A stretch of DNA of 64,000 nt. It comes from Psychrobacter urativorans. GTDB taxonomy: Bacteria > Pseudomonadota > Gammaproteobacteria > Pseudomonadales > Moraxellaceae. Within the stretch, counting starts at the first letter, position 1. Each line of letters opens with the position of its first letter. The stretch is from assembly GCF_001298525.1 (NCBI RefSeq), contig NZ_CP012678.1:1612001-1676000 (forward strand), read 5' to 3'. Shown here in pieces: positions 54,665-58,777 of this stretch. Both the position numbers and the translations under genes were made by a program. Under the pieces are notes generated by a model. That model saw only the letters and a program-made list of their open reading frames with translations. It was not told the DNA's origin and ran no database searches.

Positions 54665-55594
54665 ATGATAAAGCAGACGAATAGTTGGATATGTTTGCAG
54701 TCGCAAGCTACCGCTAGCTTGGATAAGCCTTTAAACAGCGTCAGCCTTGATAGTCGTGGTCTGGCGTATGGCGATGGGTTTTTTACCACGATGGGCGTCA
54801 TTGATGGTGCGATATTGTGGCAAGACTATCACCGTCAGCGCATCCGCTCTCATGCTACCGCTCTACAGCTTGATATTGATAGTGACGCGCTATGTATAGA
54901 TTTACAAATTCACGCCAAGCAGCTACAACAAGGGGTGCTAAAACTTATCATCACTCGCGCGCCGCAAGCTGTGCGTGGTTATGGCTTTACCCCAAAAGTA
55001 TCAGGTAGTCAGTGTAAAATTTGGCTCAAGGCAATGCCTATGAACATAGCCACTATTGATCAATGGCAGCTACCTAATGGGCATTTAGTACCTATGCAAC
55101 CTGTGATACCTGCTGCGTGTTTGACCGCACAACTTGCTTGCTTTCCACCACCTTTAGCGGGTCTAAAAAGCTTAAACCGTCTCGATAATGTGCTGGCAAG
55201 TGGTGAGCTACAGCGTCTTAATCAGACAGCACCGAATCTTGATAAAAAATTTGGTGAAGGCTTGGTGCGAGATATGACTGGGAGCTGGATTGAGGGCACG
55301 ATGAGCAATATATTTTATCGTCTCAATTCTCAAAAACAAACTTCTGCTACAGCAGAACAATTTGACAATACCCAATGGTTTACGCCACCGCTTGAGCACT
55401 CAGGCGTACGAGGGGTAATGCGTACCGTTATCATGGAAGGGTTTGCAACGTCCACGACACCGATTATGGAACGACCGCTGAGGGACGAGGATTTACCAAA
55501 GTTGTCACAGCTATTTTTTTGTAATGCGCTGCGCGGGATAATGCCAGTAAGTTCGCTAACATTGCTGACGGGTGAAGTAATCAATTTTGCATAA
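54665..55594 (+). CDS. pabC: aminodeoxychorismate lyase
   Basis: A 309-residue fold-type IV PLP enzyme (E. coli PabC 269). DSRGLAYGDGFFTTMGV is the family N-terminal motif, Lys168 in GLKSLNRLDNVLAS is the PLP lysine, GSWIEGTMSNIFY and FFCNALRGIMPV follow. It makes 4-aminobenzoate plus pyruvate for folate, complementing folK. About 40 extra residues come from loops near 225-245. In other gammaproteobacteria mltG follows directly; here a 1.8 kb DpnI-type cassette intervenes. The ribosome site is weak. Confidence 0.94.
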   Translation: MIKQTNSWICLQSQATASLDKPLNSVSLDSRGLAYGDGFFTTMGVIDGAILWQDYHRQRIRSHATALQLDIDSDALCIDLQIHAKQLQQGVLKLIITRAPQAVRGYGFTPKVSGSQCKIWLKAMPMNIATIDQWQLPNGHLVPMQPVIPAACLTAQLACFPPPLAGLKSLNRLDNVLASGELQRLNQTAPNLDKKFGEGLVRDMTGSWIEGTMSNIFYRLNSQKQTSATAEQFDNTQWFTPPLEHSGVRGVMRTVIMEGFATSTTPIMERPLRDEDLPKLSQLFFCNALRGIMPVSSLTLLTGEVINFA

Positions 55595-55599
55595 GCATT

Positions 55600-55788
55600 T
55601 TATTCGACAACTTCAAACTCCGTATTCCGATAATCTTCTGAACCTAAAACAACTTCTTCATTTTGATAAAGTGCTTGAACACGTGATAAAGCACTTTGTT
55701 CATCTTTAGCATTAACCTTAATCACTCTGCTTAAAATTTCCGTTATTTCAACGTTAAAAATTCTTTTAACGGCTACTGCTTTATTCAT
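55600..55788 (-). CDS. dpnD: DpnD/PcfM-family small protein
   Basis: A 62-residue protein that fits the DpnD-PcfM family along its whole length: FNVEITEILSRVIKV, an Ala/Gln helix (NAKDEQSALSRVQALYQ), then EEVVLGSEDYRNTEFEV. In Streptococcus pneumoniae dpnD is the second gene of the DpnI cassette, next to dpnC, which is the DpnI gene. Here the DpnI homologue is 756 bases upstream on the same strand, with an opposite-strand gene in between. Function of DpnD is not established. Its stop lies only 5 bases past the convergent pabC stop. ATG 55788 is chosen over GTG 55797. Confidence 0.78.
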   Translation of the reverse strand: MNKAVAVKRIFNVEITEILSRVIKVNAKDEQSALSRVQALYQNEEVVLGSEDYRNTEFEVVE

Positions 55789-55920
55789 GCTATGCACTCA
55801 CCACTCTTAATCCTATTTATTGGCAATATTATGTCACCTCATTATTGGGGCGACTCAAAAGAAGTGATCGTCTTTTGTTACGCAGGCTTGTGTCATTAAG
55901 CAAATCGATCAATGATGATT

Positions 55921-55948
55921 TTTTAAAGGAGAACGTTTTAAAGGAGAA
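55921..55948 (+). repeat. duplicated 13-base segment carrying two Shine-Dalgarno sequences
   Basis: TTTTAAAGGAGAA occurs at 55921-55933 and 55936-55948. Only the second copy is correctly spaced (8 bases) from ATG 55955 of the 192-residue gene. The duplicate AAAGGAG may be a slippage product or act as a standby site. Confidence 0.75.
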
Positions 55949-55954
55949 ATATCG

Positions 55955-56533
55955 ATGCGCTCAATTTATCGCTTGAGTTATAAAGAAGAACGACTGCCAA
56001 TTCCCATTCGTCGATTATTAATTTTCAATGAAATTTGTCGTATGGCTAGGCTTAAACCCAATAAGATGGTTCATTTATTACCGCATACCAAACAGGCATT
56101 TGGGGTCATGTATTTGCAAGACTGCAAAAAATATATCGCCTACGGTGGTATGTTTGAATATGCGCATGTACGGCGTGATGTGGTTGAGCAAGGCGTGCAC
56201 CGTTTACCGCATTATCAATACGTCATGTGCGCCATTACCATAAAACGGCAAGCTTTTACCAAACCTGTGCGCACGCCCGTCGAGCTGCTGTGGCACTGGC
56301 AAGATTATGTCAAAAACAGACGCTATACCTATTTAGATATTGATGAACAGCCTTTTTTTCCTGTTAATGATGAGCTGGAAATAGAATATCCACCTCACCG
56401 TTATCATGAACGTCTGGTCGCTTGCGAATATCTCCCGCTTTGGGATGAGCAAAAAATATTAGCGACACCAGCTTATAAGGATAACAAAGGGCGGTTGCGA
56501 CCTAAAGGCTATCCTGAAAAACGCTTGATATAA
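55955..56533 (+). CDS. unrecognised 192-residue basic protein inside the DpnI-type cassette
   Basis: A 192-residue protein that I do not recognise. It is rich in Arg, Lys, Tyr and His, with no signal peptide or membrane segment, and looks soluble. Visible stretches include RLPIPIRRLLIFNEICRMARLKP (basic amphipathic), a central AYGGMFEYAHVRRDVVEQG and WHWQDYVKNRRYTYLDIDEQ. A strong AAAGGAG precedes ATG 55955. It runs opposite to dpnD and the DpnI homologue and converges with the latter, leaving 10 bases between stops. Its position suggests either a host gene displaced by insertion or a third, accessory member of the cassette. Confidence 0.7.
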   Translation: MRSIYRLSYKEERLPIPIRRLLIFNEICRMARLKPNKMVHLLPHTKQAFGVMYLQDCKKYIAYGGMFEYAHVRRDVVEQGVHRLPHYQYVMCAITIKRQAFTKPVRTPVELLWHWQDYVKNRRYTYLDIDEQPFFPVNDELEIEYPPHRYHERLVACEYLPLWDEQKILATPAYKDNKGRLRPKGYPEKRLI

Positions 56534-56543
56534 GTCGGAATGG

Positions 56544-57308
56544 TTATCCTATTTTCCGATAATGCCCACGCGCTAAAAACTCAATAATGCCTTTATCGCG
56601 TAGCACTTGTAATTGCTGACGGATTTTATCTTGAATATGATGGTTATCAGGATACTTGCCTTGTAGCTCGTCAACAAAATGATAGACTTGTTTTAACGTA
56701 AACTGCTCATCAAGTCTATCAATGCATTGCCAAATATCTAATGTCCAACCACGCGCCCGCTGCGTTTGTGTGCGTAAAAACAGCGTTTGCTGAAATTGTT
56801 GGCTGACAATATTTTTTGCGATAATTTGCTGATTTTTAACCAAAAACACCTTTCCCGATTCAGGTACTTTGCGCAAATCAATATTACAGCCAACCCAACC
56901 TGCACGCCTTGCCGTCACTGACAACGGCTTACGCTTAATAATCATATCCGGCTTAAAAAAATGCTTGGGAATGATTAAAAAGTTATTGACGCTCAGCTCT
57001 TTTGAATAGGTCAAAAAGAAAAAGCTAGGATTATCCTCACTACTGATACGCTGCATCATGGTGTCATACGCGCCATCATTAATAATATGGCTCAGCGTGC
57101 CTTTTTTACTTTTAAGCTCATATTGCTCAGCACAACTGGGGCAATAAAAATCAGCGACAGGTTGATTATTGGCAAATTCGGACAATGACGGTGTATTGCA
57201 ATTGGGACAATAGCCATTATTTTTGACCCACGCTTCACTGAGCACGCGAATGATTTGTGACGGTGAATGATAGTTCTCTGCCAGTTTTTGGTTAAAATGT
57301 AGATTCAT
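56544..57308 (-). CDS. dpnC: DpnI-type methyl-dependent restriction endonuclease (GmATC)
   Basis: A 254-residue protein equal in length to pneumococcal DpnI and matching it throughout from memory: MNLHFNQKLAENY, zinc cysteines Cys34-x2-Cys37 and Cys56-x2-Cys59, and PD-(D/E)XK residues Asp53, Glu64 and Lys66 (NQPVADFYC, YELKSKKG). INDGAYDTMM, SFFFLTYSK and RRAGWVGCNIDL follow, with Trp138 at the position used by DpnI in catalytic-domain DNA contact. The C-terminal winged helix (about 184-254) ends RQQLQVLRDKGIIEF. DpnI cuts GATC only when adenine is methylated on both strands. No methylase gene is adjacent, as expected for a methyl-dependent enzyme. The start has a poor ribosome site. Confidence 0.93.
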   Translation of the reverse strand: MNLHFNQKLAENYHSPSQIIRVLSEAWVKNNGYCPNCNTPSLSEFANNQPVADFYCPSCAEQYELKSKKGTLSHIINDGAYDTMMQRISSEDNPSFFFLTYSKELSVNNFLIIPKHFFKPDMIIKRKPLSVTARRAGWVGCNIDLRKVPESGKVFLVKNQQIIAKNIVSQQFQQTLFLRTQTQRARGWTLDIWQCIDRLDEQFTLKQVYHFVDELQGKYPDNHHIQDKIRQQLQVLRDKGIIEFLARGHYRKIG

Positions 57309-57403: not shown

Positions 57404-58777
57404 ATGAGCACGCCGACCCCTGAAACACCTTCTAATCAATCGCATGATAATGCTAAAAATGACACTGAACATACGGTTGATGAGCATGCCGCGACACCGC
57501 TAAGCACTGAACCAACAGCAGCTGATGAGGCGCGCGCGGAGCACACTCAGGCAGAGGATGATAGTGCAAACAACATAGAAACGGATAGCATAGAAACAGA
57601 GCACATAGAAACGGACAAGATAGCAGACGAGACAGTGCCCGCGACTGACCTCTCCCTTATCAATGAACAAAGTACCGTGCGCCGCTATAAAACAGACAAT
57701 CCCTCCTTTTTTATGCAGCGTGGCTATCAGATATTATTGGTGCTTGGGCTGATTGCTGCTTTTGTATTGGTGATGATTTATCAGACCTTATTTGGTCGGA
57801 TTACCCAGCCGCAACAGTTGGTCACCATTGAGCATGGCGATACCTATTATGGCTTGCTGCCGAAGTGGCAAAACGTGCCGCTGTTTTCGGCAAGTTTGGC
57901 AAAGCTGTATATCAAGTCGCAAGTCGATGCGCCATTGCATGCCGGTGTCTATCAATTACCGGAAAATCCATCGCTTACCAGCGTGCTAAAAGTACTCGAG
58001 CAAGGCGCAAAAGTAGCCATGGTCAAGGTGCAAGTGATAGAAGGCAAAACCTCAAAGGATTTGTACCAAACCTTACGCGATGCAAAAGGCATCAAAAAAG
58101 AAGTGCTTACCAAAGATGCAGATAATGCCAGTATCGCCCAAGCGTTGGAGCTTGATGGCATACTACCGAATGCGGTAACCAACAGCCAAGATTATATCGT
58201 CAATCATAACTTGGAAGGCTGGTTTGCACCCGATACCTATTATTATGGCGAAGGCGCAACCGATAAGCAGATACTGACTGACTTATATAAGCTGCAACAA
58301 AAAGCTTTGACCAAAGCGTGGGAGAATCGTGCGCCCAATCTGCCGTATAAAACCCCGTATGAGGCGCTAATAATGGCGTCGATTATTGAGAAAGAAACCA
58401 GCGTTGCCGAGGAGCGTCCTTTAGTATCAGCGGTATTTAATAATCGCTTTAAGAAAGGCATGCGCATGCAAACTGACCCGACCATTATCTATGGTATGGG
58501 CAGCGGCTATGAAGGTAATATTCGCCGTAAAGATATCGATGAAAAAACCTCTTATAATACCTATCAAATCGACGGTCTGCCGCCAACACCGATTTCCTTA
58601 CCATCAGCCGCATCGATTGAAGCCACCTTGCATCCGGCAGATAGTGACGTGTTGTATTTTGTAGCAACCGGTAATGGCGGTCATAAATTTACCAATAGCT
58701 TGGCAGGACACAATCAAGCGGTTAAAGACTATCTCAGCGTCATGCGTCAGAAAAAAGCGCAAGCATCTGCGCAATAA
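57404..58777 (+). CDS. mltG: endolytic murein transglycosylase MltG
   Basis: A 457-residue protein (E. coli MltG 340). The first about 100 residues are cytoplasmic, acidic and low-complexity, containing a pentapeptide repeat IETDS-IETEH-IETDK (58-72). One transmembrane helix follows (ILLVLGLIAAFVLVMIYQTL, about 109-128). The periplasmic part has a LysM-like region and the YceG catalytic domain with Glu329 in ASIIEKETS, DPTIIYGMG, NTYQIDGLPPTPI and FVATGNGGHKF. It cuts nascent glycan strands and sets their length. The pabC-mltG-tmk order of other gammaproteobacteria is interrupted only by the DpnI-type cassette. Confidence 0.94.
   Translation: MSTPTPETPSNQSHDNAKNDTEHTVDEHAATPLSTEPTAADEARAEHTQAEDDSANNIETDSIETEHIETDKIADETVPATDLSLINEQSTVRRYKTDNPSFFMQRGYQILLVLGLIAAFVLVMIYQTLFGRITQPQQLVTIEHGDTYYGLLPKWQNVPLFSASLAKLYIKSQVDAPLHAGVYQLPENPSLTSVLKVLEQGAKVAMVKVQVIEGKTSKDLYQTLRDAKGIKKEVLTKDADNASIAQALELDGILPNAVTNSQDYIVNHNLEGWFAPDTYYYGEGATDKQILTDLYKLQQKALTKAWENRAPNLPYKTPYEALIMASIIEKETSVAEERPLVSAVFNNRFKKGMRMQTDPTIIYGMGSGYEGNIRRKDIDEKTSYNTYQIDGLPPTPISLPSAASIEATLHPADSDVLYFVATGNGGHKFTNSLAGHNQAVKDYLSVMRQKKAQASAQ
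57575..57634 (+). repeat. 15 bp in-frame tandem repeat in the mltG N-terminal tail
   Basis: Units 57575-57589, 57590-57604, 57605-57619 and a diverged 57620-57634 all begin ATAG and give the pentads IETDS, IETEH, IETDK and IADET. Number changes would keep the frame. Confidence 0.8.

Follow-up and report, generated by a model that had tools for sequence, protein, structure and literature searches.

Complementary DpnI and DpnII restriction cassettes were reportedly described in pneumococcus by Lacks in 1986, and the pneumococcal dpnI locus comprises the gene pair dpnC and dpnD. In the available text of one pneumococcal study, the DpnI and DpnII systems lie at a common chromosomal location, DpnA methylates single-stranded DNA, and dpnC and dpnD appear among the primer names (PMC3573125). 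Excerpts on Neisseria state that drg replaces dam (PMC516771; PMC4269198), that gonococcal Drg affects viability and biofilm, and that one drg arrangement is reminiscent of minimal mobile elements (PMC4269198), and the accessible part of a further source describes DpnI, DpnII and DpnIII as alternatives at a streptococcal locus (PMC12707154). Psychrobacter plasmids are known to bear type II systems, in a source whose accessible part mentions neither DpnI, DpnII nor GATC (PMC10457243), and searches for DpnI or DpnII with Psychrobacter and for DpnI with Moraxellaceae, covering titles, abstract openings and few subscription papers, returned no report of the pabC-mltG locus described here.

The window analysed is a stretch of 64,000 nucleotides of Psychrobacter urativorans (NZ_CP012678.1, positions 1,612,001 to 1,676,000) in which the interval between pabC and mltG, hereafter the slot, has the gene order pabC(+), dpnD(-), X(+), dpnI(-), mltG(+), tmk(+). 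At 56544..57308 on the minus strand lies a dpnI-like gene for a predicted Gm6ATC-specific endonuclease of 254 amino acids, in which Pfam recognises PF06044 (DpnI) over residues 1-180 at 4.7e-82 and PF17726 (DpnI_C) over residues 185-252 at 1.4e-32. The PADLOC model mREase_II matches it at 8.1e-118, and the only solved structures that match are those of DpnI itself (4esj and 4kyw; 4esj at 1.2e-95 over residues 1-253). A first-pass annotation, made from the letters alone, had credited this frame with the zinc cysteines, Asp53, Glu64, Lys66, Trp138 and winged helix of DpnI, and each of these was borne out, the winged helix by the PF17726 match when both DpnI profiles were run: C34, C37, C56 and C59, which we take to be the zinc cysteines, are all found, as are D53, W138 and the presumed active-site residues E64 and K66. 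According to the accessible text of PMC4117772, Trp138 reads both methyl groups and D53A serves as an active-site control. The same annotation had placed a DpnD/PcfM-family protein at 55600..55788 on the minus strand, which holds (PF14207, 6e-13; ATG start at 55788 in a longest open frame of 55600-55797). Sequence thus supports assigning the protein at 56544..57308 to the DpnI type, with a DpnD partner.

The neighbours named in that annotation, a pabC-like gene upstream and mltG-tmk downstream, are also as described. The left flank is a pabC-like aminodeoxychorismate lyase gene (54665..55594, plus strand; Aminotran_4 5.2e-30, with TIGR03461 at 5.6e-44 falling under its curated cut-off) and the right flank is mltG (57404..58777, plus strand; YceG 6e-77, TIGR00247 1.4e-84). 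Overlooked in that annotation was gene X, which encodes 192 amino acids at 55955..56533 on the plus strand, between the dpnD-like and dpnI-like genes. It has no Pfam, PADLOC or NCBIfam match, and 17 homologues, of which the 3 with names are all from Psychrobacter, came from a protein database search limited to relatives that have short exact words in common with it; neither X nor DpnD has convincing relatives among solved structures.

An active DpnI would imply a host without Dam methylation, as the first-pass annotation had pointed out, and results for the two methylase families searched in the host assembly (2.93 Mb, 6 contigs) are consistent with this expectation. The profile search gave no match to PF02086 (MethyltransfD12, D12/Dam-type), and the two PF01555 matches, about 8.1 kb apart on the same 16-kb contig, come from a type III-like pair in which a 520-aa N6_N4_Mtase frame adjoins an 889-aa ResIII protein. 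We take this contig to be one small plasmid, with an apparent size of 8.1 kb, assembled about twice; the pair lies there with replication and mobilisation-like genes (L234, contig C5 of the host, G000). By contrast, the accompanying claim that GATC is frequent in the window is wrong: base composition predicts 241 sites and trinucleotide frequencies 253, whereas 85 are seen, and only one other palindromic tetramer among the 16 is avoided more strongly in the window; GGCC is also strongly avoided (14 seen, 162 expected). Across the flanks of the genus GATC is the lowest of the 16 at 0.43, an avoidance that may record past restriction at GATC. Pooled observed/expected ratios by slot state are 0.41 for DpnI, 0.50 for DpnII, 0.54 for empty and 0.46 for other, and we draw nothing from the differences.

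Within the genus, 84 of 105 genomes, host included, have a PF06044 match, as opposed to 11 of 243 genomes elsewhere in the family. The junction could be mapped in 104 of the 105 (G050 was left out), and in 78 of the 84 positives dpnI or its remains lie between pabC and mltG on the same contig; a contig end interrupts the stretch in G008, G032, G132 and G109, and about 5 kb of other genes separate dpnI from mltG in G023 and G124. All eight zinc, catalytic and methyl-reading residues are kept in every one of the 73 DpnI sequences with more than 200 aligned residues, three of which are truncated (G058, G098, G025), leaving 70 of 84 at full length and 14 truncated, broken or split, with that of G132 running off two contig ends. 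Among the companion genes, dpnD matches occur in 73 of 84 dpnI-positive and gene X matches in 64 of 84, versus one of 21 dpnI-negative genomes for each (G111 in both cases). At 15 of the mapped loci (L181, L158, L163 and 12 more) gene X is duplicated in tandem, the second copy often shorter or broken.

The junction is empty, with no frame of at least 60 aa, in five genomes (G103, G018, G056, G030 and G034), and two others bear different cargo, an RCC1-repeat protein in G013 and dpnD, X and a YjbH-family block in G111, where two small proteins have no family match. The slot state was left unclassified in G133 (contig end) and G050 (no mltG match). In one deep branch a three-gene block encoding proteins of about 1020-1030, 228 and 229-249 aa sits between the slot and mltG (L130, L187, L213), and its large protein is of the YjbH family in L130. 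As for plasmids as a source of dpnI, six plasmid records matched, none from Psychrobacter; the two that cover most of the query are neisserial and chromosome-sized, and phage records gave a single partial match.

Twelve of the 21 dpnI-negative genomes have a DpnII-type cassette at the same slot. Starting from pabC, M2(-) comes first, then a protein(-) of 81-89 aa, a controller(+) of the HTH type, an endonuclease and M1, where M1 is a DpnM-like D12 methylase and M2 a DpnA-like beta-class methylase matching N6_N4_Mtase, and tblastn finds both methylases in all 12; G021 has no pabC match beside the cassette. G110, G127 and G027 carry an M1 of a second kind, placed ahead of its endonuclease, and the closest solved structure to both kinds is DpnM (2dpm; 2.4e-48 for G054 and 3.1e-87 for G127). 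A plasmid relative (L231), compared by eye with E. coli Dam, conserves Lys9, Leu122, Arg124, Pro134 and Tyr138, which presumably read GATC in Dam, and M2 matches adjoin DpnII-family endonuclease matches in 8 plasmid records. Not one of the 104 mapped genomes has dpnI and a DpnII cassette together at the slot. PF02086 matches occur in 22 of 105 genomes, namely the 12 with DpnII at the slot, four with both systems (the double genomes discussed below) and six weaker cases (G100, G048, G015, G026, G131 and G133), five of which are dpnI-positive.

The cassettes differ in their endonucleases. The DpnII Pfam family is recognised in one of the 12, where it is accompanied by a 180-aa protein (G011, 8.7e-92), and the remaining 11 hold other kinds. 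Those of 225-226 aa (G054, G104, G038, G122; MutH 5e-7 in G054, the only one scanned) and 228-232 aa (G010, G021; MutH 2.6e-12 and 1.6e-12) resemble MutH, though far under curated cut-offs, and the kinds in the other five have no known link to GATC: 174-178 aa with a faint PDDEXK_11 match in G029 and G035, and 429-460 aa with DUF6996/6997/7226 in the two scanned of G110, G127 and G027. Various endonucleases thus sit within a fairly constant shell of methylases and controller, as a cassette within a cassette (L123, L125, L128, L129, L131-L134, L136, L138-L140).

The distribution of the two states points to repeated switching. On a quick tree from AroE and Tmk covering 98 of the 105 genomes (six had no flank match and G050 was left out), the 11 testable DpnII genomes need 11 state changes, 9 of them forced by well-supported (starred) branches, and all four slot states together need 16; as shuffled labels need 10.6 changes on average, DpnII is spread like random. 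Both tree genes are linked to the slot and many of the forks have weak support, which leaves the tree open to distortion by recombination or noise. We compared five DpnI/DpnII pairs, and in four of them (G031/G104, G099/G054, G047/G127 and G003/G027) the flanks are 92-98% identical; homology ends 14-45 bases past the pabC match and picks up again 59-81 bases short of the mltG match. The fifth pair, G118/G029, stays homologous through an M2 remnant in G118. Such remnants adjoin pabC, ahead of dpnD and X, in G015, G037, G048, G109 and G118; their matches begin at residue 45 or 58, beyond the DPPY motif, some with further breaks, and in G109 dpnI itself is a fragment. We read the M2 remnants beside dpnI as probable traces of a DpnII cassette that DpnI replaced.

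Both alleles have diverged in step with their surroundings. DpnI distance correlates with flank distance at rho 0.83 (70 sequences in both alignments, without a permutation control), and neither of two outlier filters caught a single pair. The corresponding values are 0.84 for M2 (16 genomes, permutation p 0.0005) and 0.66 for the common kind of M1 (8 genomes, p 0.0095, omitting the second kind in G110, G127 and G027), with 0.83 and 0.82 for pabC and mltG as comparison. Frequent switching, combined with alleles that have both diverged alongside the flanks, suggests that the polymorphism is old and has been passed between closely related genomes; because one genome was sampled per species, polymorphism within species is something we infer.

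A similar meeting of the two systems occurs at valS in a second genus (g50), of which 22 genomes were searched for M1. In G354, G355 and G367, valS is followed by what is left of M1 (ending at residue 95 and starting at 21 or 26), dpnI, dpnD and then an M2 remnant (residues 131-264). M1 adjoins valS in G346 and G357, the latter match with a flagged stop, lies about 1.1 kb from it in G353, and is present in G348, where valS was not in the stretch examined. By DpnD profile scan, dpnD is adjacent at 13 of 26 dpnI loci outside Psychrobacter, and it lies directly downstream of dpnI in Streptococcus anginosus and several Clostridia. In two gonococcal records, NZ_CP119142.1 and NZ_CP119140.1, a DpnI match and an M2-like match are about 200 bases apart, possibly another remnant of the same exchange.

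DpnII-type genes also occur away from the slot. On the Psychrobacter plasmids pYP14d and pA17P1 a DNA adenine methylase adjoins an endonuclease of the DpnII family, and 4 of the 84 dpnI-positive genomes hold both systems (L230-L233): G020, G118 and G023 have a DpnII-family endonuclease paired with a DpnM-like adenine methylase, while in G124 the M1 is of the second kind and is accompanied by its endonuclease. These genes lie on small contigs of 5.8-8.7 kb, that of G020 with 164-base overlapping ends. Were both systems active in one genome, the host should be cut. In all four, dpnI is full length with its key residues kept; we considered inactivation of DpnI and found 0 rare changes in G118 and G020, 4 in G124 and 5 in G023, none at key residues. 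Possible explanations are that dpnI is silent, that DpnD or X controls it, that the methylase has a different specificity or that the assemblies are mixed. Outside the slot, DpnII-type genes occur in 4 of 84 genomes with dpnI and in 1 of 21 lacking it (G038, its methylase split by a transposase-like frame), so they are no rarer in the presence of dpnI; no avoidance is seen there, and exclusion is seen at the single slot only.

Taken together, we consider it probable, at roughly 80%, that the Psychrobacter pabC-mltG junction acts as a switch, a single slot occupied in turn by one or the other of two mirror-image cassettes for restriction at GATC. What can be read directly from the sequences is the homology of the parts, the shared slot, the repeated change of state in the tree of flanking genes, the DpnII remnants and the in-step divergence. 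In the DpnI state of the window, GATC would be unmethylated and the endonuclease would cut incoming Gm6ATC DNA, be it from Dam+ hosts, phages grown on DpnII-state relatives or plasmids with DpnII systems. Relatives in the DpnII state have the DpnM-like and DpnA-like methylases and the controller, together with an endonuclease that would be expected to cut GATC when it is unmethylated. The near-identical flanks would allow the cassettes to be swapped by homologous recombination, plausibly following natural transformation, for which the ComEC-family gene of the host is only permissive since such genes are also common in controls. Phage and DNA coming from one state would be restricted by the other, and this reciprocity would favour the persistence of both; here we infer the GATC specificity, the enzyme activities, the transformation route and the phage selection. 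A more far-reaching version, which we hold tentatively and below even odds, is that the opposite GATC states are an ancient polymorphism that predates species splits, kept by balancing selection and exchanged again and again between near relatives at a single slot, and that DpnD and X act as controls letting DpnI be silenced or tolerate methylation, a control that would explain the genomes holding both systems.

Other explanations have to be weighed against a switch between two GATC cassettes. The junction might be a minimal-mobile-element site for any cargo, at which DpnI and DpnII meet by coincidence and exclude each other because there is a single slot; the different cargo of G013 and G111, the lack of avoidance outside the slot and the likening of a drg arrangement to minimal mobile elements in the accessible part of PMC4269198 all fit this, but the restriction cargo recognised at the slot is always DpnI-type (84) or DpnII-type (12), and in a second genus valS is another locus where the two systems come together; we regard this explanation as unlikely. 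We think it less probable still that DpnI is kept for a role in the host, in gene regulation or fitness, rather than defence. Such a role would suit a gene that is mostly intact and diverges with its flanks, and would recall the effects on viability and biofilm that the available text of PMC4269198 ascribes to gonococcal Drg, yet dpnI is sporadically absent, decayed or replaced by a restriction cassette.

The first-pass annotation leaned towards insertion, noting that the cassette looks inserted and that a DpnI system would be unusual in a Moraxellaceae core locus. Empty junctions exist, and the cassette has a G+C content of 0.394 compared with 0.434 for the window; rarity likewise stands outside Psychrobacter, but not within the genus. 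Comparison of the pabC-mltG junction among relatives, which that annotation had itself suggested, finds dpnI or its remains in 84 of 105 genomes, and this sharing of one slot together with divergence in step with the flanks argues against recent insertion. A recent, lone arrival of a foreign DpnI in the host strain is accordingly refuted within our sample, and we give it hardly any weight.

Exchange of DpnI and DpnII has been a pneumococcal textbook curiosity, echoed most closely by neisserial drg/dam. If the pabC-mltG junction is such a switch, the exchange extends to two genera of Moraxellaceae, where it involves two loci, and runs throughout one of these genera, with sister species in opposite states. 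It would offer many natural replicates for asking whether phages maintain both methylation states in populations, and the Psychrobacter slot would be a place to study dpnD. The reading further predicts poor entry of plasmids from dam+ E. coli into many Psychrobacter strains.

The Psychrobacter locus shares with the pneumococcal one GATC systems of opposite polarity at one location and a DpnII allele with DpnM, DpnA and an endonuclease, but it differs in its position between pabC and mltG in a Gram-negative genus, in an inverted dpnD that gene X separates from dpnI, in the several endonuclease kinds within one methylase shell, and in the divergence of both alleles across a genus. As in the neisserial drg/dam arrangement, so far as the accessible texts describe it, a DpnI-type gene stands where relatives hold an adenine methylase, and the truncated dam beside drg in some strains is comparable to the methylase remnants seen here; drg, however, lies at leuS opposite dam, whereas the Psychrobacter gene is opposed by a DpnII-type set with a DpnA-like methylase. 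Alternative GATC cassettes are likewise common to Psychrobacter and the streptococcal DpnI/DpnII/DpnIII locus as outlined in the available text, although the 5mC-type third allele of streptococci has no counterpart among the recognised Psychrobacter slot cargo, a comparison in which C5 methylases lay outside the search.
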